DNA of 64,000 bases from Enterovibrio calviensis DSM 14347 (lineage in GTDB: Bacteria; Pseudomonadota; Gammaproteobacteria; Enterobacterales; Vibrionaceae): contig NZ_JHZA01000007.1 in NCBI RefSeq assembly GCF_000621165.1, positions 372,001 to 436,000 on the forward strand, written 5' to 3'. The position numbers and the translations under genes are program-made. Below are positions 15,735 to 48,904 of this stretch, one piece after another (the first letter of the stretch is position 1; every line of letters begins with the position of its first letter). The notes beneath the pieces were generated by a model. It ran no database searches. It saw only the letters and a list, made by a program, of their open reading frames with translations, and was not told where the DNA came from.

Positions 15735-16763
15735 ATGATTCGTACGGGTATTGTTGGCTTTGGCTTTTCGGCACAAACATTCCATCTGCCGTTTCTCTCT
15801 GTACTGCCAGATTTTAAGCCAGTCGCAGTCGTGTCTTCAAATCGCACGCTTGTCGAAGAGAAGCTGCCAAACGCAAGTTATTACTCAAACATTGAAGAAA
15901 TGCTTCGAGATGCTGACCTTGACCTCGTTGTTATCACTACCCCAAATCACACACACTATGAGTTCGCGAAACAAGCATTAGAAGCTGACTGCCACGTGTT
16001 GCTGGAAAAGCCGTTCGTGGTAAACAGCGGCCAAGGACTGGATCTTCTTCGTATCGCGAACCATCGCGGCAAAGTATTGTGCCCTTATCAAAACCGACGT
16101 TGGGACGGTGATTTTCTAACCGCCAAAGAACTCATTGAATCCGGAGAGCTGGGCAACGTTCGTGTTTTCGAATCTAACTTTGATCGCTTTCGTCCCGAGG
16201 TGAGACAGCGCTGGCGTGAACAACCCGGTGAAGGCGCAGGAATTCTATATGACTTAGGTTCTCACCTTGTGGACCAAGCCCTGTTCTTATTTGGCGAACC
16301 TAAATCTATCACTGCATGCTGCAAGTCAATGCGTGACCAATCCCAAGCAACTGACTATTTTAGAATGACCCTGCACTACTCGGACAAAGAAGTCATTCTA
16401 AGCTCTAGCCCTTTTCGCTCAGGTACAGGGGCAAGATTTGTCATCCAAGGTGACAAGGCGACGTTCTCTTGTTCAGGCTTAGACGTACAAGAACAACAAT
16501 TACGTGACGGTGTCACGGCGACTTATTCTGAGTTTGGCCGTCAACAGCACCAAGGTAAGCTTGAAATAGGTGACAACGTCACTGAAAAAGATGTTGAATT
16601 AGAATTCGGCTGCTACTCAGAGCTATTCGCAAGATTAGCCAGTGCGATTCTTAACGGCACTCCGACCCCCGTAGATACCTATGACGCTGTTAAAGTCATC
16701 TACGCGCTCGAACTGGCTCAACATTCATCAGAAGCAGGAAAAACTGAGCGCTGGCAATTCTGA
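15735..16763 (+). CDS. Gfo/Idh/MocA-family NAD(P)-dependent oxidoreductase
   Basis: A 342-residue oxidoreductase: an N-terminal Rossmann domain (TGIVGFGFSAQTFHLPFL) and the EKPF motif near residue 95, with the C-terminal dimerisation/substrate domain (LYDLGSHLVDQALFLFG near 173-189). The family oxidises or reduces sugars, inositols and related compounds with NAD(P); the substrate cannot be told. It is close to the YdgJ-type group in length and motifs. It starts 31 bp after a repeat element and stands alone. Two matS-like sites (16504, 16570) lie in its coding sequence. Confidence 0.85.
   Translation: MIRTGIVGFGFSAQTFHLPFLSVLPDFKPVAVVSSNRTLVEEKLPNASYYSNIEEMLRDADLDLVVITTPNHTHYEFAKQALEADCHVLLEKPFVVNSGQGLDLLRIANHRGKVLCPYQNRRWDGDFLTAKELIESGELGNVRVFESNFDRFRPEVRQRWREQPGEGAGILYDLGSHLVDQALFLFGEPKSITACCKSMRDQSQATDYFRMTLHYSDKEVILSSSPFRSGTGARFVIQGDKATFSCSGLDVQEQQLRDGVTATYSEFGRQQHQGKLEIGDNVTEKDVELEFGCYSELFARLASAILNGTPTPVDTYDAVKVIYALELAQHSSEAGKTERWQF
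16504..16516. other. matS-like MatP binding site 1
   Basis: GTGACGGTGTCAC is an exact match to the matS consensus GTGACRNYGTCAC (MatP binding). It lies in the oxidoreductase coding region (R-D-G-V-T codons). Confidence 0.75.
16570..16582. other. matS-like MatP binding site 2
   Basis: GTGACAACGTCAC matches the matS consensus exactly. It lies only 66 bp from site 1, in the same gene (G-D-N-V-T codons). Confidence 0.75.
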
Positions 16764-17139
16764 TAACAGCGACAACGTCATTATCGCCCACTTTCAATAT
16801 CCAAAGTAAGTGGGCGATATACAGAACGAGGTTGAACGAATCCTCGCAATCCCGATACCCGCGATCGATACCAATGCCTCAGGCACGACTACCAAATCGA
16901 ATATCCTTATCGGCTGACGCTTTCACGCCCTCTCTTACTGACATATGTTGTAAACGCATGCCGTACGAAGAGAATACTGTGCAACAACTTAAAGTTATAG
17001 TGCGCAAAGGTATCCATACTAGAACCTGTGTCATGGCACCTTAGATGTGACGCGTCGCCCCGCAATGCCCTGCCTCACTAGAAATTTAGGAACAAAAAAA
17101 CCTGCACGAGGCAGGTTTTATCGATTGCATTCTTTTCAA
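16764..17139. other. intergenic region, no gene seen
   Basis: Contains an 11-bp-arm hairpin (ATCGCCCACTT 16783-16793 with its complement 16808-16818), which lacks a T-run but lies just after the oxidoreductase stop, and the chrA terminator. A 70-codon frame at 16832-17044 has no ribosome-binding site and is not accepted. Confidence 0.5.
17096..17119 (-). terminator. rho-independent terminator of chrA
   Basis: Arms AAAACCTGC / GCAGGTTTT around ACGAG (17097-17119). On the minus strand the stem is followed by a run of T. It lies about 20 bp after the chrA stop. Confidence 0.85.
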
Positions 17140-18291
17140 TTAGAACATGCTGCCCGTAACCACATATGCCAACATACCAGCGAGTAGCCAGAATACACTG
17201 AGATTGAACTTACGCAGTACAGCGAACCCAACCACTACTGCAATGATATCTGCAACGCCATGAACCGCAGACATCCATACTGGTTGATAGAACGCGGCAA
17301 CCAATAGACCAACGACCGCGGCATTAATGAGTACGACTGAACCAGCAAACTTGTTGTGGTTCATAACGTTTTGCCACACAGGCAATGCTGCAAATAAAAG
17401 CAATGCGCCAGGTAAAAAGATCGCGACGGTAGCAATGACACTACCCACAACAGGGTGAATACCATCCATTGACGCACCAATGTAACTCGCGATGGTGAAC
17501 ATAGGACCAGGGACTAACTGAGCCGCTGCGTAACCTTCTACAAGCGCATCACCAGAGACAGCATCACCGATCAATGGTTGTAGCAATGGAAGCACTACAT
17601 GCCCTCCACCAAATACGAAGCTACCCGCTTGATAAAAATGATTGAACATACTGATCAATGGTGCACTGGTCAGTGTCGGCAACACCAGCAAGGCTACAAA
17701 TGCACCGAATAGAACAAAAGTCTGCGTCAGGCTTTGGTCTTTACTGACACTTGTTTCTTGAGATTGTGGCTTGCGAATAAAGATCCAACCTAGCACGCCT
17801 GCAATCACAATAGGCATCAACTGCGCCAGCAAGCCTGCTTGCCAAAGAATCCAACCCGCAGAACCCGCACAGACGGCAAGTGTCGCTGCATTGGTAATGA
17901 ATTTCTTGGCCATAGTCCAAATGGCGTCTGCCACAACCACGACGGCAAGAAGCTTGGCGGCAGTGATCAAAATCGTTAACCAAGTGGCATCACCCAGTTT
18001 TGCGCTGTATATCGCAGCGAGCGTCAATAGAAGGAAAGAGGGAAATGTAAAACCGATAAACGCTGCAATCGCGCCCAAATACCCCGCTCTGTGGTAACCA
18101 ATAAACATACCCAATTGGCTGCTCGCGGGTCCTGGGAGAAACTGACAGAGGCTTAAAGCCATGGTGAACTTCTCTTCCTCAATCCATTTACGCTTATCAA
18201 CAAACTCGCGCTGAAAGTAACCGATATGCGCGACAGGCCCCCCAAAACTCATACAGCCTAGAACCAGAAAACGAATGAAAACTTCAAGCAT
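17140..18291 (-). CDS. chrA: chromate transporter ChrA
   Basis: A 383-residue CHR-family membrane protein with two homologous halves. Half one shows SFGGPVAHIGYFQREFV (about 15-31) and QFLPGPASSQLGMFIGY (about 50-66). Half two shows FGGGHVVLPLLQPLIG and AAQLVPGPMFTIASYIG. These paired motifs identify the two-domain CHR superfamily, which exports chromate and may move sulfate-like oxyanions. About ten helices are predicted by eye. It diverges from a LysR-family regulator across 659 bp, so that regulator may control it. Confidence 0.9.
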   Translation of the reverse strand: MLEVFIRFLVLGCMSFGGPVAHIGYFQREFVDKRKWIEEEKFTMALSLCQFLPGPASSQLGMFIGYHRAGYLGAIAAFIGFTFPSFLLLTLAAIYSAKLGDATWLTILITAAKLLAVVVVADAIWTMAKKFITNAATLAVCAGSAGWILWQAGLLAQLMPIVIAGVLGWIFIRKPQSQETSVSKDQSLTQTFVLFGAFVALLVLPTLTSAPLISMFNHFYQAGSFVFGGGHVVLPLLQPLIGDAVSGDALVEGYAAAQLVPGPMFTIASYIGASMDGIHPVVGSVIATVAIFLPGALLLFAALPVWQNVMNHNKFAGSVVLINAAVVGLLVAAFYQPVWMSAVHGVADIIAVVVGFAVLRKFNLSVFWLLAGMLAYVVTGSMF

Positions 18292-18950
18292 TGCAATTAC
18301 ACCTCAATTATTTTGCTCAATTCTACCGAATTAACCCCCATTGATAGAAACAATTCATATCAATCCAAACTATTAACTAAATCGATATGCAAGTAATAGC
18401 CGTTATCAATCTTCCTCTTTTATGTTACCAAGATCGTTAAGATCCGTCACTTTGTTACATATGTATGTGAGCACACACTAACATCGACATTCATTGTTTC
18501 CCACACAAAACAAATCGATTTATATTCATTTTATTCAGTTAGTTAAGTCAATATTTGAAATTGAATTTTGACTGGAATGATAACGTAATTTACTTTCAAA
18601 ACACGATCTTGTAACAGTATTGAGGTCCTCTCCTATCGCTGTGATGATCACTTATTGAGTTTTCGTAGAACGAGGTACGCTAACCGAGAAACCCCCTATT
18701 GGTGCGACGAGCATGAAACAGTGAATCCCGAAAAGTACAAAGTTTGACGTCTTACTGAAGTCAGAAAACAAGACTTCACCACTGCTAAAGCGAATGGGGA
18801 GTGTTTGAGAAAATCGGAGATGTGCCTTGGGCTTTTACAGATATAAAGTGAGAGGATAAGTTTAATCAATCTTAATTGTGACAACGTCACTCTGAGATTA
18901 AACGTTAGTTGTGTTACGCTATCCTCTTCTCATCAATGAAGAAATTATGC
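18292..18950. other. 659-bp divergent intergenic region (chrA / lysR)
   Basis: No gene seen. The part nearest chrA (18300-18580) is very AT-rich and probably holds its promoter. A 64-codon minus-strand frame (18696-18890) has no ribosome-binding site and is not accepted. Near the lysR end lies matS-like site 3 (18878-18890). Confidence 0.5.
18878..18890. other. matS-like MatP binding site 3
   Basis: GTGACAACGTCAC, an exact match to GTGACRNYGTCAC, intergenic, 61 bp before the LysR start. Confidence 0.8.
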
Positions 18951-19859
18951 ATGTTAGATCATCTTCAACAAATGGTTGTTCTTGCTACCGTGGCACACGA
19001 ACAGCACTTCACTCGTGCAGCAGAGTTTTTGGGTATTTCGAAGTCTCAGGTGAGTAAGCAAATTCGATATCTGGAAGAAAGACTCGGCGTTCAGCTTGTT
19101 CAGCGTAATACACGATCAGTGTCTTTAACGGAAGCTGGTAAGCAATATGCAGCCTTTGGACGTCAAATTGTTGAAACCATGCAGGATGCAGAGGCAATGG
19201 TCGCGGGCTACCGCAACGAAATATCTGGCCGGTTAAAGATTGGCGTCGCACAATCGTTTGGAAATATGCAGATCACCCGTCTTCTTTCTTCATTCCAAGA
19301 GCTTTACCCTGCCCTTGAGTTAGAAATACATCTTTTCGATCATCGTCCTAATCTTGTTGAAGATGGGTTTGACTGTTGGCTAGCGATTCATGAACATCCA
19401 CCAGAAGGCATGGTGGCGAGAAAGCTCGGTGATTGTCAGTTTCAAATTGTTGCCGCCCCTTCTTATCTTGATGTGCATGGCGAGCCCACGCATCCCGCTG
19501 ACCTGCGAGAACATAACTGCATTACCTACCAAAGCGTTCAACGCACTTATGACCAATGGCCATTTCAACGAGATGGTAGCGAGCAGTCCGTAACAATAAG
19601 AGGCTCATACCGCATCAATAACGCTCCAGCCGTTTTGGAAGCGGCAAAGTCAGGCGTCGGAATTGCCTATATCGCGACGTACTTACTTGGTGATGAAATC
19701 GAAAGCGGTCAGCTGAAAGTGATCATGCCAACCTGGACACCGACAATGAAGTTACCCGTTTATGTGGTTTATCCAAGAAGGGAGTTTCTCGCGCCCAAAG
19801 TCAGACACTTCGTTGATTTTCTTTCTGAAAATATCGATATAGGCAATATCAAAAAATAG
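18951..19859 (+). CDS. LysR-family transcriptional regulator
   Basis: A 302-residue LysR-type regulator. The N-terminal winged helix-turn-helix runs about residues 4-62 (HFTRAAEFLGISKSQVSKQI, then LEERLGVQLVQRNTRSVSLT). The rest is the periplasmic-binding-like effector domain (substrate binding inferred from family only). ATG 18951 gives the usual LysTR length; in-frame alternatives at 18936 (ATG) and 18909 (TTG) would add 5 or 14 residues. It diverges from chrA, the usual arrangement of a LysR gene with its target, so chrA or another target in this region is the likely regulon. Confidence 0.88.
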   Translation: MLDHLQQMVVLATVAHEQHFTRAAEFLGISKSQVSKQIRYLEERLGVQLVQRNTRSVSLTEAGKQYAAFGRQIVETMQDAEAMVAGYRNEISGRLKIGVAQSFGNMQITRLLSSFQELYPALELEIHLFDHRPNLVEDGFDCWLAIHEHPPEGMVARKLGDCQFQIVAAPSYLDVHGEPTHPADLREHNCITYQSVQRTYDQWPFQRDGSEQSVTIRGSYRINNAPAVLEAAKSGVGIAYIATYLLGDEIESGQLKVIMPTWTPTMKLPVYVVYPRREFLAPKVRHFVDFLSENIDIGNIKK

Positions 19860-19903
19860 TTAATGGCCGTCACTAGAACGCCGACAATTTTTGAGAATAC
19901 AGC

Positions 19904-19933
19904 AAAAAGGGAGTGACACTGTCACTCCCTTTT
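19904..19933 (+). terminator. terminator of the LysR gene, containing matS-like site 4
   Basis: A long hairpin with arms AAAAGGGAGTGAC / GTCACTCCCTTTT around ACT, followed by T-rich sequence. It lies between the convergent LysR and PlsC genes, so it can serve both strands. The stem centre is the matS match at 19913-19925. Confidence 0.8.
19913..19925. other. matS-like MatP binding site 4 (inside a terminator)
   Basis: GTGACACTGTCAC matches the matS consensus exactly and forms the loop-proximal half of a terminator stem. Confidence 0.7.
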
Positions 19934-20003
19934 CTTATTTCATTTACCTGAACAGACAAGACGACTAGCAACAAGCCTAACTTTGTCTTTAAGATACCTG
20001 TCT

Positions 20004-21116
20004 TTAGATACCTGCCTTTTTATCCGTTGGCATGGCGTACATCGACCTTACAATTTGTGCAACGCCATCCGGTAGCGCCGATATCTTGCTATCAAACAAT
20101 TGGCGATCGCTATCAGTAATCGACGCATGATCTTTACCTGCGGCGATATAGTTCGACGGGAACAAGTGGTAATTTTGATAAATCTGGCGGTCGATTTCAG
20201 CAGCCAGCGCATCGGGCGTTTCAAAGTCATTTCCAATCACATCACCAAAGGCAACGTGGATACGTCGTTTTTGACCGACAATACCTTGAACGATACTTTC
20301 GATGTCTTCGAACTCACCTTTTTCGTATCCACCATCTTCTTGCTTACGGTAAAGCTCATTCGCCTTTGCCGCATCACATGGGTCATTCTCGTAAGAGATG
20401 GTAATTGGAACAATACGTAGCGAAGCAATGTAGTCAGCAAAAGCAATTTTCTGACGACGACCTTCAAAGTGGAACATTTTTAGGATGGCAGGCTCGGTTT
20501 TGTCGTTGCCGTCTTTCGCTCGCCCTTCTTTTTGAGCAATCCAAACCGATTGATTCTCATCGATTGAGTGCTTGATATACGCAGAAAGTTGTCCCAAGGC
20601 TTTCATCATTTCTCTTGGGCCTTTGGCAGAACGTTTAACAATAAAGCTCTTGTTGAGCTTCATCAGTTCTGTTGCACAAGGCTTTTTGAGTAGATTGTCT
20701 CCAATCGCGATTCTTAACGTATCAAAACCATTTACGTACAAGCACCAATTGACCATCGCAGGATCCATGGCGATGTCACGATGGTTTGAAACAAACAAGT
20801 AACTCTGGTTAGGGTCTAACTTATCCAAGCCACTTGTTGTAAACCCTTCAGATGTATTTTTGATCATAGACTGCATGTAGCTTGCAACGTTCATTTGAAC
20901 ATCGCTGACAGTTTTGACTTTATTCCATTTTGTCAGGAGGTAGTGTTTCACTAAAGGTTTGATCAACCAACCCACAACGCCTGATAGTTTGGGGAAGCGA
21001 TACTTTAGGATCGCCGAAATAAATTCTTCGTCATTAACCAAGCGCTCGATAGCACCAGGTACTTCATCATCACGATAAGGCCGAATTTCTAAAAAAGGAT
21101 CATTTGTTTGAGGCAC
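20004..21116 (-). CDS. PlsC-type acyltransferase family protein
   Basis: A 370-residue protein with 1-acylglycerol-3-phosphate acyltransferase features: NHRDIAMDP (about 111-119), and EGRAKDG (about 197-203), corresponding to the family EGxR motif. The first motif reads His followed by Asp six residues later, not five as in the classical HX4D; this spacing variant is noted. No signal peptide is seen; it probably sits at the inner-membrane face and acylates a lysophospholipid or related glycerolipid. It converges with the LysR gene and diverges from the 21338 gene. Confidence 0.72.
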   Translation of the reverse strand: MPQTNDPFLEIRPYRDDEVPGAIERLVNDEEFISAILKYRFPKLSGVVGWLIKPLVKHYLLTKWNKVKTVSDVQMNVASYMQSMIKNTSEGFTTSGLDKLDPNQSYLFVSNHRDIAMDPAMVNWCLYVNGFDTLRIAIGDNLLKKPCATELMKLNKSFIVKRSAKGPREMMKALGQLSAYIKHSIDENQSVWIAQKEGRAKDGNDKTEPAILKMFHFEGRRQKIAFADYIASLRIVPITISYENDPCDAAKANELYRKQEDGGYEKGEFEDIESIVQGIVGQKRRIHVAFGDVIGNDFETPDALAAEIDRQIYQNYHLFPSNYIAAGKDHASITDSDRQLFDSKISALPDGVAQIVRSMYAMPTDKKAGI

Positions 21117-21337
21117 GAGACTCTACTTTCTCCGTTGAAAAACCGCGTCATTCTACGCTGATATGACTTTTCGAACATTGTTTTGGTCGCCATTCAGAAC
21201 AGGTTGGAGGTCTTACCTCCCTTACTTTTCATCAAATCGTATCAAATTGTACGTTAATCGCTCGATAAGATTCTCACCGCTTGATCTAGGTAACAAAACA
21301 AAAGACTATGTGCGCGTCAGATCAAGAGAAATATGCC

Positions 21338-22006
21338 ATGAAGCAAGCCATCGAATTTAATCACTACCACGCCAAAACCATGATCATCGGAGCACGTAAA
21401 AAGCAGCCTTTTGCAAGCTATGTGTTTGTGCATAAAGGTACGGCGTTAGTTAGGCTCGGAAAACATGAACTTCCAATTTGTGCCGACCAAGGTTTTTGGT
21501 TGCCAATGGAGTGTCTCAGTGCAATCACTGTTTTGAAAGGCTCCGAAGTTTCAACCTTAAACTTCTCAGTCCGTTCGATTGCTTCTTTACCGACTCAAGC
21601 CGGTTTTGTTGAATCATCGTCTTTAATAAAAGGCATTGTGGAACAGTTAGTCGAATACCAAAAGCGTAATGAAGAACAGTGGGATAGTCCTCACGGAAGA
21701 CTGCTTCGCTGCGCAAGAGACTTCTTGTCGACCTCGATGCCTTCAGATTGTAATACCGATGTATTCCGCCATTTATTGTCGTCACTAGATGCCTTGAACA
21801 AAGGTCATGCTTTGTCAGACACTCAACGCGACGAATTAAAGCGAGCACTTGGAATTTCTGACGACGATATCGCGATTCAGTTGCGCGTTCGCGAATGGGT
21901 TCGCCTTCATAAGTCAGGGCGCACATTTGCTAAAATTGCTGCCGATGTGGGTTTGTTAGAATCTGAAGTTAGCCAATTGCTCGAACACATTGCAGGTATT
22001 AGTTAG
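21338..22006 (+). CDS. AraC-like regulator with degenerate C-terminal HTH
   Basis: A 222-residue protein with an N-terminal cupin-like segment (about 20-65, IIGARKKQPFASYVFVHKGT then LGKHELPICADQGFWLPM), as in AraC-family regulators, and a C-terminal segment (about 150-215) with SGRTFAKIAADVGLLESEVS, which resembles a helix-turn-helix but is shorter than the usual two AraC helices. ATG 21338 is chosen because a GAGA-type site lies about nine bases upstream; the ATG at 21308 has no such site. A member of an AraC-like group is likely. Targets unknown. Confidence 0.6.
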   Translation: MKQAIEFNHYHAKTMIIGARKKQPFASYVFVHKGTALVRLGKHELPICADQGFWLPMECLSAITVLKGSEVSTLNFSVRSIASLPTQAGFVESSSLIKGIVEQLVEYQKRNEEQWDSPHGRLLRCARDFLSTSMPSDCNTDVFRHLLSSLDALNKGHALSDTQRDELKRALGISDDDIAIQLRVREWVRLHKSGRTFAKIAADVGLLESEVSQLLEHIAGIS

Positions 22007-22058
22007 GGCAGGCGCCCTAACCGTTTCATTCAAATCGTTAGATAGTTCGATAACGTAA

Positions 22059-22547
22059 TTATTGAATGGGAACCTGCATTTGTAGCAAAATCTCGGTGTT
22101 GGTGTCTTCATGCCAGCGCATATCAAACCGATACCGAGCATCACTGATATTTGAATCCGTACTAAAACTGAAATTCAAACCATGATTCAGAATCCAATCT
22201 TCAGTTGAACTGTCTTTTAGTGACAATCCTTGGTACTCGTCTGGCTTCCAAACACCAAATCCGTAATAAGAGTTACCCGTCGTGGTCGTTAAATACTTCG
22301 GCGCATCTAAGCCGTATTTCCAGCCATCCCAAATCGAAGGTAGCACAGTATCTTCAATCGACCATTCAATAACACTGGCTTCGTAGGATTGGGAAAAGTT
22401 AATTTGGTAAGCCCCTCCATCTTGAAGAGAAGAAGGTGATCGTAAGTTCAAGCGCGTTTCATCAATGGCAGCATGAGAAAGTGACGCTGTCACTAATGTT
22501 ACAAAAGATACGCCAATTATTTTAATTTTTATAGTCAAAGGGAACAT
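22059..22547 (-). CDS. exported hypothetical protein, 162 aa
   Basis: A signal peptide (KIKIIGVSFVTLVTASLSHA, cleavage after about residue 26) is followed by a beta-rich region with repeated W, Y and G (NSYYGFGVWKPDEYQG, WILNHGLNFSFSTDS), ending LLQMQVPIQ. It is therefore probably periplasmic or outer-membrane associated. I do not recognise the family. Convergent with the AraC-like gene. The matS-like site 5 overlaps its signal-peptide codons. Confidence 0.55.
   Translation of the reverse strand: MFPLTIKIKIIGVSFVTLVTASLSHAAIDETRLNLRSPSSLQDGGAYQINFSQSYEASVIEWSIEDTVLPSIWDGWKYGLDAPKYLTTTTGNSYYGFGVWKPDEYQGLSLKDSSTEDWILNHGLNFSFSTDSNISDARYRFDMRWHEDTNTEILLQMQVPIQ
22481..22493. other. matS-like MatP binding site 5
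   Basis: GTGACGCTGTCAC matches GTGACRNYGTCAC exactly, within the signal-peptide codons of the 22059-22547 gene. Confidence 0.7.
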
Positions 22548-22665
22548 ATTACCCTATCAAATGATGATAACGGAGGTACAAGACGCACCTCCAAATCGAA
22601 AAGATATATTGTTGTCGTTCTAGTATTTCTTTTTAAGAAATCACTTAGCTAACGCAAAGTAATGC

Positions 22666-23187: not shown

Positions 23188-23458
23188 GTTTCTCTGCATT
23201 GTTCTTTTTTGACAAAGGTTTATCTATTGATACTTAATCGAGCCTCAAGGTTCAATCAATTTTTCATATCGGCCTTATTAAGTGAGTAATTTATCTACAG
23301 ACTCACACTATTGTCTATTCTTGCCAGCAAAAACCTCCTAAACACGCGCAATTGGGTCTAAATTTCAATCAATGGCACCATCCCTTATTGAATGTTCATG
23401 ATTTTGCTCACAAGATATTGCAGAATAGACAAAACGTGTTTACGAGGAACCCCACGAC

Positions 23459-35659: not shown

Positions 35660-37408
35660 CTAATCTGAGGAACAAACAGGACAAGGGACATAATTCGCGC
35701 AAGTGGTCGGCATCACGGCAAGGGATTCTTGCGCTCTGGCATACTCGATAAAGCTCTCTGACAAGGTGACGTCAATAGAGAACGGAGGCTCTGCGAGATG
35801 TTTCAACGAGTCGTAGCCCTCTTTACCTTGCGAAGTATAAGCCGATGAAACAACGGTATAAACGCTATCGGGCTCTATGGCTAGCCATTCGCCATCTTGA
35901 TTAAGGTACTCAAGAACCGTAATGCGTTCACCTTTTGGCTTGTCACATTCGTAGCGGTAATTTAGACCCGCAGTATATGGAAAGCTTCCATCACCCGTAC
36001 CTTCAATACAGTTGTTCGTTGCGTTATCGATCGCCCCTTCGAGGGCTTGCATCACCTGAAGCCCTGTCGGCTTATACAACATCAGATCGATAGCAAAAGG
36101 CAACAGACGACCCGCCACTTCTGCAGCAGTCAACTTGCCTTGCTCTAAACTGACACGCACACCACCTGCATTATGAATGGCAAAGTCCACTTGGTGACCG
36201 CGCTCGCGAGCCGCATACAAGAAGCCTTCACATACTAGCGGTGCGATTTCGCTTCCCCCTTTCTCATCGGGAACACGAATATGACGCAAACGAGCTGGTA
36301 ATCGAGTGACAACGTCACTCTTTAATTTCTCAACGGCTGGCTTATATCGCTCATTTAGGACTGTTTTTATCTCTTCATCACCACGGCAATGGAGGACATT
36401 AGGTTGTTGCGCCAAGTACTCTTTCGCTAGGGTAAATGCTTCTGCGGGTAAACGTTGATCCCATGAAGCGTCCATGGCCAAGCTGCGTCCCAGCATCAGA
36501 TAGTTACCGCCACTGTAATCAGACACTCTACCTTGCGCATCTAGCGTAACGCGTAACTTACCCAGCGCAAAAGAATGACAGCCCGCTTGTACCACCAGCG
36601 TGTCCTGAATTAATCGCCCATATGACCCCATGTCACCTAAGCCGAGGTTACTAAAGTCCCCTTGCAATACGTGGCTGTGACCACCAACGATGACAGAAAG
36701 CCCATCAACCTCTTCTGCCATTTTTAAGTCCTGATCGTAACCAAGGTGGCTAAGCAGAATGATGTGATTAGTGCCAAGGTGCTGTTTGATGTGCGCAACG
36801 GTATCCACAATCGTTTGCTTGGCATTCATGAACGGCGTATCAGCATCAGGCATCGCGATGTCAGCCATCTTGTCGAGAGCAACACTAAATATCGCGACAT
36901 TCTGATCGCCAAACTGCTTGAGCATCACACTCGCGATCTTGTTAACGGGGTCGTATGGAAGCAGTTGACGCTTGCCCTTCACAGGGCACGGTTTTTGATC
37001 GCACTCATTGCTGACATCCCAATTTCCTGCAAGTAGTGGGAAATTGATTTGGTCAAGAAGGCGCGACACGGATGCGTTGCCAAGATCGAGCTCGTGGTTG
37101 CCTAACGCCATGGCATCAGGCCGAAGTAAATTGAGCATTGTGGCATTGGCTTCGCCTTTAAAAAGGCTGTAATACAAGGTGCCTTGAAAGCAATCCCCCG
37201 CATGTAGAAACAAGAAACCATCTGTTGTTGACGTCGTTTCTTCTTTGAAAGATTTAACCACGGAAGAAATACGCGCAAATCCGCCGACATTTGCATAGAT
37301 GCGTTCATCGAGACCAGGAATTGCCAATGACATAGGCGTCGGTTCGAAATGGGAGTGGGTATCATTGATGTGCGCGATAGCAAGCGTTATGGACGTGAAG
37401 TTAGGCAT
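35660..37408 (-). CDS. UshA-family 5'-nucleotidase/metallophosphoesterase without signal peptide
   Basis: A 582-residue metallophosphoesterase: HINDTHSH (about 13-20), GDCFQGTLYY, GNHELD, HLGYDQD and GGHSH metal-binding motifs, then the C-terminal 5'-nucleotidase domain (after about 330, with DFAIHNAGGVR and VVSSAYTSQG). ATG 37408 has AGGA five bases upstream. No signal peptide: the first metal motif begins at residue 13. It probably acts in the cytoplasm on nucleotides or nucleotide-sugars. The C-terminus ends with a cysteine cluster, CANYVPCPVCSSD, not typical of UshA. Confidence 0.82.
   Translation of the reverse strand: MPNFTSITLAIAHINDTHSHFEPTPMSLAIPGLDERIYANVGGFARISSVVKSFKEETTSTTDGFLFLHAGDCFQGTLYYSLFKGEANATMLNLLRPDAMALGNHELDLGNASVSRLLDQINFPLLAGNWDVSNECDQKPCPVKGKRQLLPYDPVNKIASVMLKQFGDQNVAIFSVALDKMADIAMPDADTPFMNAKQTIVDTVAHIKQHLGTNHIILLSHLGYDQDLKMAEEVDGLSVIVGGHSHVLQGDFSNLGLGDMGSYGRLIQDTLVVQAGCHSFALGKLRVTLDAQGRVSDYSGGNYLMLGRSLAMDASWDQRLPAEAFTLAKEYLAQQPNVLHCRGDEEIKTVLNERYKPAVEKLKSDVVTRLPARLRHIRVPDEKGGSEIAPLVCEGFLYAARERGHQVDFAIHNAGGVRVSLEQGKLTAAEVAGRLLPFAIDLMLYKPTGLQVMQALEGAIDNATNNCIEGTGDGSFPYTAGLNYRYECDKPKGERITVLEYLNQDGEWLAIEPDSVYTVVSSAYTSQGKEGYDSLKHLAEPPFSIDVTLSESFIEYARAQESLAVMPTTCANYVPCPVCSSD
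36306..36318. other. matS-like MatP binding site 6
   Basis: GTGACAACGTCAC matches the matS consensus exactly. Inside the UshA-family gene (S-D-V-V-T codons on the minus strand). Confidence 0.75.
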
Positions 37409-37557
37409 GATTTCCTTTATGCGTTTCACAAAACAAGAGTGTATCAAACTCTGAGTCTAGAGAACACATATCACAGTTTTGTTGCAACTCACTTTATTAA
37501 CCCCAGCAAGGACTACCATCAAGGCCAGCCAGCACAAGGCTATTGCCTCTTTATTAT

Positions 37558-40896: not shown

Positions 40897-40947
40897 TTTC
40901 CATCACTTTACCGTTCCTCTTTACGCGAACGAGTGTCAATCAATAAC

Positions 40948-40975: not shown

Positions 40976-41061
40976 TATCACTAGTTTCAAGACCTTACTC
41001 ACATAGCGTCACCAGAGAAAGTGATACACTTTTTAATGTTCATTCCTCAAAAATAGTCATC

Positions 41062-41514: not shown

Positions 41515-42095
41515 AAACCAAAATCATCATACTGGCGCTAGCATTGGTGGCGGGATTGGGCGCTCGGTATATGGTCGAACAAAACCAAACACCCGACATT
41601 GTTGTGGAGTTGGGCAAATTACAAAGTGGTGACCAAACAGTCCAACTTTTTGATACCACGGATGAAAGATTACGCGTTCTCTATTTTGGCTATGCACATT
41701 GTCCAGATGTTTGCCCAACGTCGCTCGCTATTCTTTCGGCGGCTTTGAAGTCATTACCCGAAGAAACATTAGCAGGCGTACGCCCCATTTTCGTTACCCT
41801 CGACCCGAAGAGAGATGACGCAGACGTGGCGAAAGAGTATGCAGGCTATTTCCACCCAATGCTTGAAGGCACGAGCGGTAGCGTGGAAGCCATTGACGCG
41901 TTGGCTAAGAAATATGGCGTGCTTTACCAAATCACAGAATTAGAAGACTCGGCAATGGAATACGCCGTTGACCACAGTTCCTACTTCTATTTCTTGAAAC
42001 CAGATGGCACCTTAATTGAAAAAGTGCCACACACTTTGAACCCCAACATGGTGTCTGATGCTATCGAACGTTTAGGCCCGAGTGCTAAGCGTTAA
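41511..42095 (+). CDS. SCO1/SenC-type copper chaperone
   Basis: A 194-residue thioredoxin-fold protein with a signal anchor (about 5-22). Copper ligands are C64 and C68 in GYAHCPDVCPT, and H155 in AVDHSSYFYF, the three ligands of SCO proteins. It delivers copper to the Cu-A centre of cytochrome oxidase. It is coupled to the upstream gene by a four-base overlap and followed by a PCuAC chaperone, so both copper donors are in one operon. Confidence 0.9.
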   Translation: MKTKIIILALALVAGLGARYMVEQNQTPDIVVELGKLQSGDQTVQLFDTTDERLRVLYFGYAHCPDVCPTSLAILSAALKSLPEETLAGVRPIFVTLDPKRDDADVAKEYAGYFHPMLEGTSGSVEAIDALAKKYGVLYQITELEDSAMEYAVDHSSYFYFLKPDGTLIEKVPHTLNPNMVSDAIERLGPSAKR

Positions 42096-42195
42096 TAACA
42101 GCCATCTTTTCCGCGTTCTCTATGTGTTCCACGCTGAACCCATGCGCCGAATGTGAGTTTTTACCGAAAACTGAATGTTAGAAAAAGGAGTTTCG

Positions 42196-42657
42196 ATGAA
42201 ACCAGCCCCCCTGATATGTTCATTACTCGCTGGAGTATTCTCATTATCAGTCAATGCAGCCATTGAACTGACTGACCCTTATGCGCGAGCAACACCGCCA
42301 AGAGCGCCCAACAGCGCTGCGTTTATGATCATTAGTAACACAGGCAGTGAAGCAGTCAGTTTGATCCGTGCCGAAAGCCCCGCAGCTGGAACCGTCGAAC
42401 TTCATAACCATGTAATGGATGAAGGCATGATGAAAATGCGACAAGTTGACAGCATTGAAGTACCCAGCCACGGAAAAGCAACCTTAGAGCCTGGTGGCTT
42501 ACATATCATGCTGTTCGATCTCTCTGCCCCATTAAAAGATGGCGAACGCCTTCCTTTAACTTTGCACTTCTCAAATGGTACAGAGGTCACACAATCTATT
42601 CCCATTACGAGGGCAATGGTTGAATCAAAAATGAAACACGGCCACGATAGTCATTAG
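42196..42657 (+). CDS. periplasmic copper chaperone PCu(A)C
   Basis: A 153-residue exported protein: signal peptide (1-21, LAGVFSLSVNA), then the Cu(I)-binding set H70, M81, H103 and M105, which fits the H-x10-M-x21-H-x-M motif of PCuAC exactly. AGGAG lies five bases before ATG 42196. With SCO it delivers copper to cytochrome c oxidase Cu-A. It is 100 bp after the SCO gene and likely in the same transcript. Confidence 0.92.
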   Translation: MKPAPLICSLLAGVFSLSVNAAIELTDPYARATPPRAPNSAAFMIISNTGSEAVSLIRAESPAAGTVELHNHVMDEGMMKMRQVDSIEVPSHGKATLEPGGLHIMLFDLSAPLKDGERLPLTLHFSNGTEVTQSIPITRAMVESKMKHGHDSH

Positions 42658-42849
42658 AAATTGCTAAAATTCTAAGTATTTATGCTGACGTGTGACTTAG
42701 ATTTTTGGGCAGTATCAACATTGAGGCGTACATCAAATGCCATCTGGCGGCAAAATAGTGATTCGCAGTCTATGTTTATACTGCAACCAGTTATTCAACA
42801 GGTAAAAAGCAGTAAAAGGCAACCCAACAAAAACAATGAGGTTTTAACT

Positions 42850-43095
42850 ATGAAAATTCGTCTTCTAGCGTTAGCAGCAATTGCATCCAGCGCAGTTCTA
42901 GCTGGTTGTTCAAACAACTCAGCGCTTGAGCAAAGTGTTGCAGATCTGTCATCTAAAGTAGATTCTCTTTCAAACCAAGTTTCTTCTCTACAAGGTGATG
43001 TTGCTGATGTAGCAGCTGCAACCGCTTTATCTTATGACGAAGCAGCACGTGCGAACGAGCGTATTGACAACATGGCGCAGTCTTACACTAAGTAA
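42850..43095 (+). CDS. lpp: murein lipoprotein Lpp
   Basis: An 81-residue lipoprotein with a signal peptide and lipobox LAGC (C20), then a heptad-rich helix (SSKVDSLSNQVSSLQGDV) that forms the trimeric coiled coil, and a terminal Lys (K81) that is linked to peptidoglycan. GAGG lies upstream of the ATG. It is convergent with an L,D-transpeptidase gene whose enzymes make this link. Confidence 0.9.
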   Translation: MKIRLLALAAIASSAVLAGCSNNSALEQSVADLSSKVDSLSNQVSSLQGDVADVAAATALSYDEAARANERIDNMAQSYTK

Positions 43096-43113
43096 GCCGT
43101 CTTGTAAGTCTCT

Positions 43114-44058
43114 CTATAATTCAGCGGCATCTTCGGATGCCGCTTCGCTTCCCAGCTCTATCGGCATTCCTGACTGCACAGCAAGTGCCGCTCTATAGCG
43201 ACTCTCATTCATTTGATTGCTCTTGAGCCAAAGTGACGTTCTGCTATCAGGCAGTGTCAGCATTCGCGTTCCCGCTTGTTCTTCATCCAATGATAATGGC
43301 CTATGGGCTTCTACGTACACAGCACCGTCAGGCTCATAGCTGGTTTTTACAGGCTCATTGATCACGCGAACTTTTTCGCCCACGTCCACTTCATCGAATA
43401 ACCACACGATATCTTCTGGTCGCATCCGAATACAGCCAGAGCTCACACGCAATCCAATACCGAAGTCCTTGTTGGTTCCATGAATCAAATAAGTGCCTGT
43501 TCCGTAAGCCAACCTTAAGGCATGCGTACCCAAAGGATTCTCAGGCCCTGCTGGAACAATATCAGGCAAAACAATGTTTTTGGTTTCTAAGTATTCTTGG
43601 CGAATACTTTCTGGCGGCGTCCATGTGGGATTTTCTCGCTTCTGGCTAATCTTGGTTTTCATGATTGGCGTGTCTCGCCCTATTCGCCCAATACCAATAG
43701 GAAAAACGTTCACTTTCCCTATCTCAGGTTCAAAATAGTACAAACGTAATTCCGCAAGGTTAATCACCACGCCTTCGTAATCAACGTCAGGCAAAATGAG
43801 CTGTTGGGGAATAGTCACAAAGGTGCCAGCGTCAGGAAGGTAAGGATCAATGCCAGGGTTTGCGGAAAGTAAGGCTAAAAAGCCGACGTTATAGTGCTTG
43901 GCGATGAGCTCTAAATGCTCTCCCTGCTTAACAACATGAATTGTATTCTCGCCAATTAGGCGCGTGTTTTCTTCAGGCCAATCATATTGGTTTGCTTGAA
44001 GTGTCGTCGGCAAAATGAAAGCACTTAAATACAAAAACGGTCGAAGCATCGAATTCAT
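43114..44058 (-). CDS. LysM-containing L,D-transpeptidase (ErfK/YcfS/YbiS-type)
   Basis: A 314-residue periplasmic enzyme: signal peptide (1-22), a LysM-like domain (about 38-86, HVVKQGEHLELIAKHYNVG), then the YkuD catalytic domain with H193 and C209 in HGTNK..RVSSGCIRMR. These enzymes attach Lpp to peptidoglycan or cross-link peptidoglycan. It lies next to lpp in convergent orientation. The last 20 residues are acidic. Confidence 0.92.
   Translation of the reverse strand: MNSMLRPFLYLSAFILPTTLQANQYDWPEENTRLIGENTIHVVKQGEHLELIAKHYNVGFLALLSANPGIDPYLPDAGTFVTIPQQLILPDVDYEGVVINLAELRLYYFEPEIGKVNVFPIGIGRIGRDTPIMKTKISQKRENPTWTPPESIRQEYLETKNIVLPDIVPAGPENPLGTHALRLAYGTGTYLIHGTNKDFGIGLRVSSGCIRMRPEDIVWLFDEVDVGEKVRVINEPVKTSYEPDGAVYVEAHRPLSLDEEQAGTRMLTLPDSRTSLWLKSNQMNESRYRAALAVQSGMPIELGSEAASEDAAEL
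43123..43144 (+). terminator. hairpin terminator candidate for lpp, inside the 3' end of the L,D-transpeptidase gene
   Basis: AGCGGCATC (43123-43131), TTCG loop and GATGCCGCT (43136-43144): perfect nine-bp arms with a stable TTCG tetraloop, 28 bp after the lpp stop. It lies within the last codons of the convergent gene. The T-run is poor, but the stem is strong. Confidence 0.55.
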
Positions 44059-44134
44059 GAAACAAAAATCTCTTAGTCTTATTCTATCTAGATAGCAGGA
44101 AAGGAGCAGTGTTCATCACTTAATAATAGATATA

Positions 44135-44206
44135 TATACCCAAGTAACCTGAATATGCTCGATTTCAGAGGCTCTCAGAGAGAGCATCTCAGGTTGTTTC
44201 GGTATA
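44135..44206. repeat. inverted-repeat element, copy 4
   Basis: Left arm TATACCCAAGTAACCTGA (44135-44152) and right arm TCAGGTTGTTTCGGTATA (inverted, mismatched; 44189-44206). Inner sequence has a secondary dyad (GCTCTCAGAGAGAGC). The least perfect of the four copies, as if older. Confidence 0.8.
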
Positions 44207-44340
44207 TCACGTCATCCCCACTGCACTTGCAACTGGCCTCGTCGAAAAGCCAAACAAATGTTGATTTTATCTCGACACTGAAACACACGGTAAAATGGCG
44301 TTATATGACCAAATAACCGCAAGATGGACAGACATCCAAG

Positions 44341-44757
44341 TTAGAAGTAGATACGCAGACCAAGGGAGCCTTCAAGTTTCAACGCGGAATCTTCCTGCCA
44401 GTACCATACGGTTCCTGCTTCGCCGTAAAGTTCTATATTCCCTCGTCCCATGGGTGTTGCTACGCCAACACCCGCCCTTGGTCCCCATTTATGTGTTGAA
44501 TCATCAACCCATTGAAAACCACCAAAGCCATACAAAGAAAGTGGCAGATATTCAGGCCGCGCTAACCAAGGACCAAGATCCCACATGCCATCAATCGCTG
44601 CTCCTTTCTCTTCAATCCCCAAAGAAACTCGCATCGCACTTTGTGACACTGTCACGCCAGACATTGGCGTTCCGAGAAAAACCCCAGCAGAAAAACCTTG
44701 CGACGACGCAGACATCGCTGGCAACAACAGTGCCAGCCCAATGAGATAACGCTTCAT
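44341..44757 (-). CDS. small outer-membrane beta-barrel-like protein, 138 aa
   Basis: A signal peptide (1-18, IGLALLLPAMSASS), then Gly/Tyr/Trp-rich alternating strands (YGFGGFQWVDD, GRGNIELYGEAG) and a C-terminal aromatic Phe (LRIYF), the end signal of outer-membrane barrels. At 138 residues it would form a small eight-stranded barrel. matS-like site 7 lies in it. Not recognised as a named family. Confidence 0.55.
   Translation of the reverse strand: MKRYLIGLALLLPAMSASSQGFSAGVFLGTPMSGVTVSQSAMRVSLGIEEKGAAIDGMWDLGPWLARPEYLPLSLYGFGGFQWVDDSTHKWGPRAGVGVATPMGRGNIELYGEAGTVWYWQEDSALKLEGSLGLRIYF
44643..44655. other. matS-like MatP binding site 7
   Basis: GTGACACTGTCAC matches the matS consensus exactly. 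In the coding sequence of the small barrel protein. Confidence 0.7.
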
Positions 44758-45085
44758 TTTAAATTTCCATTTCTTGTGCCCAACTCAACGTCGAAAGGCA
44801 ACCAAACTCATATCACTAGTGGGATATTAACACTTCTCAGCATATTATCAGTGGCTATTCCGTAAAAGGCCTTATTGGTTACAAAACAATCGCTTCAGCC
44901 TTAAAATTAGCGCCAACGCTCACACCTTTTGCCATTGGTCACAACTGCCATCATCCTTTACACCTTTTTTCCCGTAGTACGTAAACTTATGAAAGAAAAC
45001 TGTCGCTATATAGGTCTTTGTAGCGAGAGATAGTTTTATTGTTTGCTTAACGCACCAGACCAATGCTGACTAATGGAGATCAACA
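44758..45085. other. intergenic region, no gene seen
   Basis: Divergent promoter region between the small barrel gene and msrP. No repeat or clear operator. Confidence 0.5.
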
Positions 45086-46105
45086 ATGCTGATTCGAGTA
45101 CCCAAGAAATCCGAAATAAAAGAGCATGAACTGACTCCAGAGTCTGTTTACCACTCTCGTAGAGACATATTGAAGAAGCTCGGCATTGTGACGGCAACAT
45201 TGCCCTTTGCAGCGCAGAGCCAAGCCAACATCTTTGATATTTTTGGTGGTGATGACGAAAAGAAAGCAGACGTTCTTTTTCAACGGTCAGCATTAACTGG
45301 TCAACCTAGTACTTATGGAGCAGGTCTCCCTCTCACGCCTGAAAACAAAGTACTTACCTATAACAACTTCTACGAGTTTGGCACCGGGAAAAATGACCCT
45401 GTCGACAACAGTCAATCATTCAAGGTTGATCCCTGGAAACTGGAGGTGACGGGGTTAGTTAACAACCCAATCTCGTTAAGCTATGAAGACTTGCTCAAGC
45501 GTTTCACCCTAGAAGAGCGTCTCTATCGTATGCGCTGTGTTGAAGCTTGGTCGATGAACATTCCTTGGATTGGTTTTTCGTTGGGTGATCTCATTAGAGC
45601 CGCAGACCCTCTCGGAAGCGCGAAATACGTGGCCTTTGAGACGCTATACGACCCTAAGCAAATGCCCGGTCAAGCATCTCAATTTGTAGGCGGCGGTATT
45701 GATTACCCCTATGTTGAAGGTTTACGCCTCGACGAAGCCATGAATGATCTCACGCTCCTAAGCGTCGGCTTGTATGGCCAGACCCTTGCCCCACAAAATG
45801 GAGCACCGGTTCGTTTGGTTGTGCCTTGGAAGTACGGGTTCAAGAGCATCAAATCGATTGTTAAAATCCACTTGCTTGAATCCCAACCTGCGACCACATG
45901 GAATCTACTTGCCCGTCACGAATACGGCTTCTATGCCAACGTGAATCCGCAAGTTGACCATCCGCGTTGGAGCCAAGGTTCAGAGCGCTTCATCGGTGAA
46001 GGTTCGATTTTCAGCTCTCGTCGCCAACCGACAGCCATGTTCAACGGCTATCAAGAAGAAGTCGCGAGTTTATATAAAGGTTTGGATTTGAGGTCTAACT
46101 ATTGA
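45086..46105 (+). CDS. msrP: periplasmic methionine-sulfoxide reductase catalytic subunit MsrP
   Basis: A 339-residue molybdopterin enzyme of the YedY class. A twin-arginine signal is present (SRRDILKK at 24-31, then hydrophobic [16 protein letters not shown]). C151 in [14 protein letters not shown] is the Mo-ligand cysteine. It reduces protein methionine sulfoxide in the periplasm with MsrQ as electron donor. msrQ starts inside the stop codon (TTGA at 46102-46105), so they are coupled. The start AGATCAAC has a GGAG upstream (46 bases shorter frames not needed). Confidence 0.94.
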
Positions 46106-46722
46106 AGCCATTGACAGCAAAGCACATTGTTTGGGTCAAAGCATTAATCCATGGCATCAGCCTGTTGTTTTTCGCCAACCTGGTTTGGTTGGTGTTAAAC
46201 AACAAATTTGGTGCAGATCCCGTTGATGGCATCACACATTACACGGGCATCGCCGCACTCAATACTCTGATGGTTACCATGTTCATAAGCCCAATTGCGA
46301 GATATGCAAAACAAGGGCTGTTGATCCGCTGTCGTCGTGTTGTCGGGCTATATAGCTTCTTTTGGGCAACACTACATTTATTAACCTATCTCGCACTTGA
46401 TTTGACCTTCAGCTTTTCACTGTTAGGCAGTGAAATTCTCAGCCGTCCTTACCTTACCGTCGGCGCGATTTGTTGGGTTATTCTCTTTGCCTTAACAGTC
46501 ACATCGACATCTCGCATACAACGTAAAATGGGGGCAAAATGGCAAAAGCTTCACCATTACGTCTATTTGGCGCTTGTCTTAGCGCCAATCCATTTTTACT
46601 GGTCATCAAAGTCCGAGCTAATTGAGCCAAGCATCTATTTTTTGTTGGCGATTTCTTTACTCGCCGTTCGCTGGAAAACCCTTAAAAGAATCGTATTTCG
46701 GCCTGCCCTCAAGCGAGGATAG
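46102..46722 (+). CDS. msrQ: haem-containing electron donor MsrQ
   Basis: A 206-residue membrane protein with six helices of the ferric-reductase-like YedZ family, carrying His residues for b-type haem (e.g. [35 protein letters not shown]). It transfers electrons from the respiratory chain to MsrP. It starts with TTG at 46102, overlapping the msrP stop, a typical coupled start. Confidence 0.92.
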
Positions 46723-46836
46723 CCTCACTTTTGAACGCTTCACCACAATTAGGCATCTGAATTAGTGCAAATTTCTATTTTTTGCCATACTTTAGGTAAC
46801 CCTTTGTCGTGAAGCTTGTTTTTGGAGTAGGCTTTT

Positions 46837-47466
46837 TTGCTGGATGAACTTATTTCACAAAGCTTACGAGACTTTCAATTAGACTGTCTCAGTTTCTGTG
46901 AACACCATTATCCAACGATTCATAATCGCGGGATGAAAGAAAGCCATCTCGGTAAGGCATTGGCGCGTCGTATCATGCACTCTTACGATAAGCTAGACAT
47001 AGAAACCACCTGTCGGTCTGTCGAAGAATCCAACACCACCAAGCAGTTGGTGTTTCTCATTGACACCCCTGAACATCAAATCTATATCGTTGCACATCGT
47101 CTCATCAGCGCAAACCTTGCGTGTCGTAAAGCTATCGTTAACGACATGAAGTGGACACTTGACCATCTCGAAGGATCCAATGACAAAGAACGGCGAATCA
47201 TTGTTATCGCTGACCACTGGATCGATCGTTCAGTCGCGAGTAAATCTGTACCCAGTTGGTGGCTGGGACATCAACCTATTCATCAAGCCGATTTTGCCGC
47301 ACAAGGTGTCAAACTTGTCGACGCAGAGCACTCTCTCGCGGGTGATATTGAGGTAGTGTGTGAAATAGCAGGTGGACGACATCGTATCTATCACCCGCTC
47401 CATCGCCAACGAGACGGGTTGCCGCTATATAAATACCTACTGTTAACAGCCACATATCCGTTATAG
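46837..47466 (+). CDS. hypothetical protein, 209 aa
   Basis: A 209-residue soluble protein, His-, Lys- and Arg-rich, with no signal peptide or membrane segment. The TTG at 46837 is assumed as start, with GGAG 10 bases upstream. Segments such as KQLVFLIDTPEHQIYIVAHR and KERRIIVIADHWIDRS show alternating hydrophobic strands, so an alpha/beta fold is probable. Not recognised. It stands between msrPQ and the MATE gene, same strand. Confidence 0.5.
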   Translation: MLDELISQSLRDFQLDCLSFCEHHYPTIHNRGMKESHLGKALARRIMHSYDKLDIETTCRSVEESNTTKQLVFLIDTPEHQIYIVAHRLISANLACRKAIVNDMKWTLDHLEGSNDKERRIIVIADHWIDRSVASKSVPSWWLGHQPIHQADFAAQGVKLVDAEHSLAGDIEVVCEIAGGRHRIYHPLHRQRDGLPLYKYLLLTATYPL

Positions 47467-47545
47467 AGGCTGAAAGACTTCACTCTCGTTGCCGTATTAC
47501 TGCATTCTCAATGAATAGTATTTCACCTTTCACGCCGGAAACGCC

Positions 47546-48904
47546 ATGACCGCCGAAGTAAATGCCAACGATAGCCTCTTGCGTGATGCGCCGATCATAA
47601 ACCTCTTTCTTCGTTATTCACTTCCCACTGTCGCCGCCATGATGGTGACTGGCATCTATGTTGCTGTTGATGGCATGTTCATCGGTCATTTCGTTGGAGA
47701 AGGTGGCCTTGCAGCCATTATGCTCGCTTATCCAATTGGCTCGATCCTATACGCGCTGGGCAACATGATTGGCATGGGTGCGGCATCGTTGGTGTCGATT
47801 CACCTTGGAAGCGGAAATCCTAAATCAGCACAACAAGTGGTGGGCAATGCCTTTTCACTGTCATTGCTAGTCAGTGTTGTCGTTTCTATTTTTGGCGTCA
47901 TATTTTCAAAAGATATTGTTCACGCCTTAGGTGCTCAAGGACATGTCGCCGAAATGGCTGTGACCTATCTGAAATGGTATTTCGGCATGGGAACCTTTGC
48001 CCTCCTCTCTATGGCATTTTCAATTTTGCTAAGAAACGATGGGCAGCCAAACCGCGTCACCGCAATCATGATTTTAGGTGGCGTACTCAATATCTTCTTG
48101 GATTGGGTATTCATTGTTCTTATTCCTTGGGAGCTTAAAGGCGCTGCCATCGCGACCATGCTGTCCCAACTAGTGACGGCGTCACTTTGTCTTTTCCACT
48201 TTTTCCAACCCTCCACTCGTCTTCGTATTACGTGGCAATCGATTGTTATTAAGAGTAAAACCCTCACTGACATTATGCAGCTCGGTGTTCCGGGTTTGCT
48301 TATGTACCTGTATTTATCCGTGGTTCTTACGTTGCACAACATGGCGTTCTTGTCATTAGGCAGCACGATTCATGTGGCGGCCTACGCGGTAGTCAGTTAC
48401 ACAGAAGCATTCTTCTACTTAGCGTTTGAAGGTATCGCTTTGGGTATGCAGCCTATTACAAGCTTTAATCTTGGTGCGAAAAGAATGGACAGGGTGATTG
48501 AAAGTCGCAATATCGCGTTTGGCGCGGCGCTACTTGTCTCCATAACGGGTTTGTTGCTCGTTTATGTATTTCCCGAAGCCGTCATCTACGCATTTGCGGG
48601 AGATAGCCCTGAGCTCGCTGAGGTGACCAAAGAAGGTATGTATTTGTACTTCTGGGGCTTACCGACCGAAGCCTTGTTGCTTGTTGGCGCGATTTATTTT
48701 CAGTCCATCAACCAAGCGACAATTGCCAATTGGTTGACGGGCGGTAAACTGGTCATCATGGCAGTGATGCTTTTTGCCATGACTAAACTCGTCGGCACCA
48801 CGGGCGTTTGGATTTCTCTGGCATGCACTAGCACATTGCTGTTTGTCTGGATGATGTGGAAGCTCTACCAAACACGGCTCTCAACACAGTCAGCTACGCC
48901 CTAG
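47546..48904 (+). CDS. MATE-family multidrug efflux transporter
   Basis: A 452-residue membrane protein with twelve helices in two bundles. MATE features: ..LRYSLPTVAAMMVTGIYVAVDGMFIGHF.. at the N-terminus (about 23-50) and PITSFNLGAKRMDRVIESR (about 307-325), the usual QP..S.N.GA motif. It exchanges Na+ or H+ for cationic drugs. Substrate unknown. matS-like site 8 lies within it. The stop is followed 33 bp later by an AEC transporter. Confidence 0.9.
   Translation: MTAEVNANDSLLRDAPIINLFLRYSLPTVAAMMVTGIYVAVDGMFIGHFVGEGGLAAIMLAYPIGSILYALGNMIGMGAASLVSIHLGSGNPKSAQQVVGNAFSLSLLVSVVVSIFGVIFSKDIVHALGAQGHVAEMAVTYLKWYFGMGTFALLSMAFSILLRNDGQPNRVTAIMILGGVLNIFLDWVFIVLIPWELKGAAIATMLSQLVTASLCLFHFFQPSTRLRITWQSIVIKSKTLTDIMQLGVPGLLMYLYLSVVLTLHNMAFLSLGSTIHVAAYAVVSYTEAFFYLAFEGIALGMQPITSFNLGAKRMDRVIESRNIAFGAALLVSITGLLLVYVFPEAVIYAFAGDSPELAEVTKEGMYLYFWGLPTEALLLVGAIYFQSINQATIANWLTGGKLVIMAVMLFAMTKLVGTTGVWISLACTSTLLFVWMMWKLYQTRLSTQSATP
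48173..48185. other. matS-like MatP binding site 8
   Basis: GTGACGGCGTCAC matches the matS consensus exactly. In the MATE coding sequence (L-V-T-A-S-L codons). Confidence 0.7.

Follow-up and report, generated by a model that had tools for sequence, protein, structure and literature searches.

MatP binds matS sites, displaces MukBEF and links the replication terminus (Ter) to the divisome. In E. coli, the sites of the Ter macrodomain share a 13-bp consensus and their density rises towards dif, as it does in every surveyed species according to the passages of PMC10945525 drawn on here; these passages also describe a MukBEF exclusion that is graded with the number of matS sites and seemingly affected by their density. 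In Vibrio cholerae, a single MatP is present and the chromosome 2 terminus carries matS sites, with dif2 inside the resulting domain, TerII (PMC4177673). These features of both systems recur in the DNA described here, a 64 kb stretch (C4:372001-436000; hereafter the window, to which positions without a contig name refer) of a genome assembled into 28 contigs (5,503,346 bases). The window carries an array of matS sequences that are very probably the sites of a chromosome 2 Ter macrodomain, predicted to be bound by MatP from a single matP gene near a dif-like site on another contig (dif1).

Nine exact matches to the matS consensus GTGACRNYGTCAC occur in the window, spanning 42 kb, while 100 dinucleotide-preserving shuffles of the window gave a mean of 0.01 and never more than 1. 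A preliminary description of this DNA had listed eight exact sites and judged them far more frequent than chance allows; the shuffles bear out the enrichment and all eight coordinates were correct, but a ninth site at 6504-6516 had been missed. Genome-wide, there are 47 exact matches, versus 2 for the pattern read backwards. Contig C4, which includes the window, holds 18 of them and C3 holds 15, with the remaining 14 spread over eight contigs. Finding 9 of 47 sites in 64 kb has a binomial probability of 4e-9 against a uniform spread, a post hoc value since the window was picked for its sites. With up to two mismatches, the window has 28 matches (7.6 expected). Only one of these differs from matS at a single position: GTGACAGCGTAAC at 5880-5892 (GTTACGCTGTCAC on the other strand), which is the same 13-mer as found upstream of the genome's own matP.

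Using a pattern written from known dif sequences, we found a dif-like site with one mismatch at C4:367209-367234 (dif2) and one with no mismatch at C3:411239-411264 (dif1). Of the 47 matS sites, 33 lie on these two contigs, each of which carries one of the two best dif-like sites. The GC skew of C4 is positive up to 360 kb, about zero in the 360-380 kb bin that contains dif2, and negative thereafter. FtsK-orienting polar sequences (KOPS), whose consensus we take to be GGGNAGGG, change in the same place, with forward/reverse counts of 16/2 before this bin, 2/1 inside it and 0/4 after it. Distances from dif2 range between 11.3 and 53.0 kb for the nine window sites, and its other side has four more sites within 40 kb. 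In 13/13 genomes, four to six sites are grouped within 6.1 kb, at 16-35 kb from dif2, with some members of the group changing between genomes.

The placement on chromosome 2 was tested in relatives, our own assembly consisting of 28 contigs. In a relative assembled into three contigs (G009), the orthologous region is on a 1.76 Mb contig (C2), and dif1 and matP are on a 3.76 Mb contig (C1). On chromosome 2 of this genome, 12 of the 20 matS sites are found at most 130 kb from dif2 (2.96 expected); the corresponding figure for chromosome 1 is 16 of 21 at most 200 kb from dif1 (2.23 expected). The location of the orthologous region supports placing the window, in this Enterovibrio/Grimontia-clade bacterium, on chromosome 2. 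As a separate observation, the two dif-like sites of the draft genome G013 share a single contig of 3.2 Mb (C38:98770 and 1510431), possibly through chromosome fusion or misassembly.

To delimit the domain we applied the published criterion, which allows no gap of 100 kb, and counted the exact consensus only. The domain on C4 then has 17 sites in 226 kb, or 7.5 per 100 kb, with an open right end as the contig stops 8.4 kb past the last site; the corresponding chromosome 2 domain (Ter2) of G009 has 15 sites in 267 kb (5.6 per 100 kb). Table 1 of PMC10945525, whose counts come from a MEME-based search unlike the exact-consensus counts here, gives 14 matS in 452 kb for V. cholerae chromosome 2 (3.1 per 100 kb), and 6.4, 12.5 and 18.8 per 100 kb for Salinivibrio kushneri chromosome 2, Aliivibrio fischeri and Photobacterium angustum, respectively; our genus is not among the entries of that table. 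The present domain hence differs from TerII in belonging to another genus and in its higher density (7.5 vs 3.1 per 100 kb). E. coli Ter averages 3 sites per 100 kb, compared to nine within 42 kb in the window, including a pair 66 bp apart. P. angustum and A. fischeri, however, are Vibrionales whose dense Ter domains exceed Ter2 here on average, and we reject an unprecedented density on the basis of the same table. The array is a known kind of Ter domain, dense but not a record.

These results support the interpretation given in the preliminary description, with some corrections. It had placed the window in the Ter region of a Vibrio chromosome, probably the second; both Ter and the second chromosome stand (given dif2 and the G009 orthologue), while the genus Vibrio does not. 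The array it called unusually dense is so relative to E. coli but not among Vibrionales. A uniform genome-wide density, a distant dif or a missing matP would have spoken against it; we found 47 sites of non-uniform density, a dif-like site 4.8 kb left of the window edge and a matP gene. The sites also surround a switch in GC skew, as it had anticipated, with skew and KOPS both changing at the dif2 bin.

The matP gene lies at C3:429867-430118 (PF06303, E 1.4e-41), 19 kb from dif1, and matches to it were found in 18/18 genomes of the genus, our own included. The copy in G014 (C41; loci L061 and L062) comes in two overlapping pieces in different frames and seems to be frameshifted or mis-sequenced, the assembly being 87% complete. 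In 14/18 genomes, matP is also preceded by an exact matS at a distance of about 560-600 bp (2331-2343 of locus L019 in our own), and four Salinivibrio loci (L138, L143, L144 and L194) have an exact matS within matP itself, 73 bp after its start.

Exact matS sites number 32-47 in the 13 genus genomes of at least 5 Mb and 21 in G007 (4.0 Mb); there are 6 in G016, 8 in G017 and just one apiece in the smallest two genomes, G001 and G005. We compared Ter2 in 12 of the 17 relatives, leaving out G001, G005 and G011 (no match to the dif pattern) as well as G016 and G017 (one match each, in broken assemblies). Across these 12, the 14 own sites give 168 site-by-genome cells; 129 could be aligned, and in 87 of these the matS is still exact. 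Our own base is matched with an identity of 0.91 over the ten fixed positions, compared to 0.71-0.82 over the three in the centre and 0.67 in flanking sequence. Half-sites of our matS are kept in 201/262 cells (77%), whereas isolated copies of GTGAC/GTCAC in this region are kept in 340/1696 (20%). Seven window sites lie in open reading frames (ORFs); for these we counted third codon bases where the amino acid is kept, and such bases are retained in 154/168 matS core cells (92%) versus 9196/18127 other cells (51%). In total, Ter2 of the 13 genomes holds 131 exact sites in 1.26 Mb, versus 3 in C4:1-300000. These 13-mers are under selection as DNA sites.

The individual sites differ in how well they are conserved. 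The most stable are two sites at 16504-16516 and 16570-16582, both inside a Gfo/Idh/MocA oxidoreductase gene (ORF 15735-16763, +), which are kept in 12/12 and 11/12 relatives, respectively. Their spacing is exactly 66 bp in 11/12 relatives, and 71/71 of their third codon bases are kept, versus 1490/3247 elsewhere in the same gene. The site at 36306-36318, inside a 5'-nucleotidase-like gene (ORF 35660-37447, -), is kept in 10/12, with 33/33 third codon bases retained. Two sites are intergenic: one at 18878-18890 between divergent chromate transporter (-) and LysR-type regulator (+) genes (kept in 8/9 alignable relatives), and one at 19913-19925 between the convergent LysR-type (+) and acyltransferase (-) genes (5/8, leaving out G007, which has an intact site beside an alignment gap). 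The site at 22481-22493, near the 5' end of an ORF with no Pfam match (22059-22547, -), is kept in 5/11 alignable relatives. At 44643-44655 the site lies inside two overlapping ORFs (44295-44744, +; 44341-44757, -) and is kept in 5/12; the first of these is probably not a true frame, since 94% of its third bases are kept outside the matS too, and it is nonetheless counted in the 154/168. The least conserved are the site at 48173-48185, inside a MatE transporter gene (ORF 47546-48904, +; 1/4 alignable), and GTGACAGCGTCAC at 6504-6516, inside a TonB-dependent receptor gene (ORF 5696-7927, -), which lies +11.3 kb from dif2 and remains an exact matS in 3/12 alignable relatives. A megablast of window positions 16000-40000 against plasmids returned 10 records with one match of about 3 kb each, covering pntAB where annotated; in a Vibrio plasmid record, the annotation of the matched region has no features.

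The sequences closest to matS show a clear preference. In Ter2 of the 13 genomes, the change from G to T at position 3 of the consensus (GTTACRNYGTCAC) occurs 34 times and every other single change at most 4 times, in a tally that counts orthologous sites once per genome and so contains non-independent cases. The stretch C4:1-300000 has 3 exact matS and 1 such variant. Judging by sequence, the G3-to-T variant looks like a tolerated, perhaps weaker, matS. In our own genome, 14 of the 25 distinct places matching GTTACRNYGTMAC are on C3, the dif1 contig, and one of them is a variant palindrome at the promoter of matP (G000:C3:430167-430179, -; L019 1801-1813). In a relative (L127), the variant precedes the matP start codon by 58 bp, and it has the same place in our genome.

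We examined this palindrome further in the best 80 loci of a MatP-alignment scan, all of them Vibrionaceae and picked on protein similarity alone (L127-L206). In 78 of these 80, GTTACRNYGTMAC occurs 36-60 bp upstream of the matP start, while in none of the 80 is an exact matS found within 200 bp upstream of matP. The remaining two loci have related forms: GTTAGGCTGTAAT in Candidatus Enterovibrio luxaltus and GTTACCCTGTCAC in a Vibrio metagenome-assembled genome. The 75 distinct upstream sequences among the 78 have TTG at -21 to -19 relative to this putative operator (T in 74, T in 75 and G in 75 of 75). This -35 box lies exactly 17 bp before TACRCT, which corresponds to operator positions 3-8, so that the Vibrionaceae operator probably contains the -10 box. 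The last base of TACRCT is T in 74/75, though the matS rule permits C or T. No other column flanking the operator exceeds 77%. The ten fixed operator columns are invariant by construction; the independent facts are the matching of 78/80 loci and the -35 TTG.

Two reduced genomes are worth a separate mention. G001 (Ca. E. luxaltus) and G005 both keep matP with one exact matS each; reduced genomes thus retain MatP with almost no sites. In G001 the only exact matS of the genome is the one about 560-600 bp upstream of matP, and the matP operator is altered too.

A similar palindrome is found beyond the Vibrionaceae. In E. coli K-12, GTTACACGGTAAC (L207 4461-4473), which differs from the RNY form by one mismatch, precedes matP by 25 bp. 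Order-wide, 94 of 295 genomes have matP. We examined the 110 bp upstream of matP in 78 of these; 15 others had already been matched by a tighter pattern and our own genome was read separately. An unmismatched GTKACNNNGTMAC is present in 59/78 genomes, divided by family into 11/11 in our own, 14/18 in f19, 19/19 in f27, 15/23 in f9 and 0/7 in four others. Including the 15 and our own genome, 75/94 matP genomes of the order have the palindrome, whereas none of the 78 comes within even one mismatch of it in a control interval (-400 to -290). Of the 59 unmismatched palindromes, 55 have a GTTAC half upstream and 2 are exact matS. From our reading of the sequences, the palindrome in f19, f27 and f9 mostly sits just downstream of a -10-like box, where transcription probably starts. 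As candidate labels, f19 is Enterobacteriaceae-like (its upstream sequences resemble that of E. coli) and f9 Pasteurellaceae-like.

Several other explanations have to be weighed. If the window palindromes belonged to some other DNA-binding protein sharing the matS consensus, such as a transcription factor or a restriction-modification system, one could point to the intergenic position of two of the nine sites, one being flanked by divergent genes and adjacent to a LysR-type gene, and to the outer four bases that matS and the SlmA site have in common (mentioned in the review PMC3116907). Yet seven of the nine are in ORFs and one lies between convergent genes, and neither a regulon nor a restriction system explains the concentration near dif on both replicons of G009; SlmA is described as bound outside Ter and with another half-site, and matP is found in 18/18 genus genomes. 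We therefore reject a restriction-modification system or transcription-factor regulon, based on the ORF locations and this clustering, and regard any such protein as very unlikely. Chance, or a by-product of codon usage in terminus genes, is more improbable still, to the point of being negligible: the shuffles gave 0.01 sites and the reversed pattern 2 genome-wide, and the retention of half-sites (77% vs 20%) and third bases (92% vs 51%) argues against it, even though 7/9 sites are in ORFs and matS is compatible with common codons. The chromosome 2 Ter macrodomain itself has some observations to contend with. The turnover of single sites is high (87/129 alignable cells exact), and the conservation cells come from related, non-independent genomes, a shared ancestry by which p-values are overstated, although the contrast is still large. 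Fourteen of the 47 matS sites are on eight contigs of unplaced chromosome position. A third dif-like match, with two mismatches, lies on a 103 kb contig with one matS (C14:79192-79217; L018), possibly belonging to a XerCD-using mobile element or a further replicon, or due to chance. Lastly, as many sites as at dif are found around 10% of random points on G009 chromosome 2 and 1.7% on chromosome 1; because of the former figure, the chromosome 2 cluster is best described as broad and loosely centred on dif2.

The palindrome at the matP promoter could instead be the site of another regulator or a mere conserved -10 element, which we consider possible but rather unlikely. In favour of this, the palindrome is never an exact matS in the best 80 Vibrionaceae loci, and its RNY centre is broken in 22 of the 59 order-wide palindromes. 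A -10 box, on the other hand, does not require GTMAC as right half, yet the pattern matched by 78/80 loci includes it, and the other families appear to keep the palindrome downstream of the -10-like box. We also rejected the -10 box as the sole cause of the GTTAC half, since 44/48 unmismatched palindromes outside our own family have GTTAC. Further, the palindrome has the 13-bp geometry of matS, no other single change is as common in Ter2 as this variant (34 vs at most 4), and ribbon-helix-helix proteins often regulate their own genes. A MatP operator in turn has several results against it. Genome-wide, GTTACRNYGTMAC occurs 13 and 18 times on the two strands against 6 and 10 for the reversed control, only about a twofold excess. 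In the 12-kb E. coli stretch, 60/200 shuffles hold an equally good match, so that the weight of the E. coli match lies in its position only. The palindrome is lacking in 16/94 matP genomes and has one mismatch in a further 3 (all f19), and the RNY centre is kept in only 37/59. A statement in the review PMC3116907 also has MatP without effect on gene expression in the Ter macrodomain, but its reach is limited because a matP deletion could not reveal an effect on matP itself.

Our open-access literature searches, judged mostly on titles and abstracts, returned no report of matP autoregulation via a matS variant, nor any earlier description of the 66-bp matS pair or the GTTAC-half variant. In the papers looked into, autoregulation concerned other genes, and another paper uses matP only as a PCR reference. 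A paper on MatP condensates does not contain "promoter", "autoregul" or "repress", and one on MatP and MukBEF does not contain "autoregul".

If the system works as in E. coli and V. cholerae, MatP from the single matP near dif1 would bind the matS sites of the window, hold the terminus near mid-cell and remove MukBEF. Sister termini would then be resolved by XerCD/FtsK at dif2 at division. As for matP itself, we somewhat favour the view that MatP acts as an autorepressor through a conserved, weakened matS (GTTAC NNN GTMAC) at its own promoter, in Vibrionaceae and in the Enterobacteriaceae-like and Pasteurellaceae-like families. MatP would fill the genomic matS sites first and its own weaker operator afterwards, where it would occlude RNA polymerase and shut off matP. 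The supply of MatP would then be set by how many matS sites there are and how densely they lie, forming a titration feedback.

The window thus offers a well-supported Ter2, whose local density and fixed 66-bp pair lend themselves to testing the effect of matS spacing on MukBEF. If true, the self-operator would also explain how the supply of MatP is matched to sets of matS that differ widely among species. As a putative autorepressor, MatP can be likened to MetJ, Arc and CopG/ParG, which are small dimeric ribbon-helix-helix binders with a palindromic operator at their own promoter. Unlike these, MatP is known as a chromosome organiser, and its putative operator would be a modified version of the site that it uses structurally.

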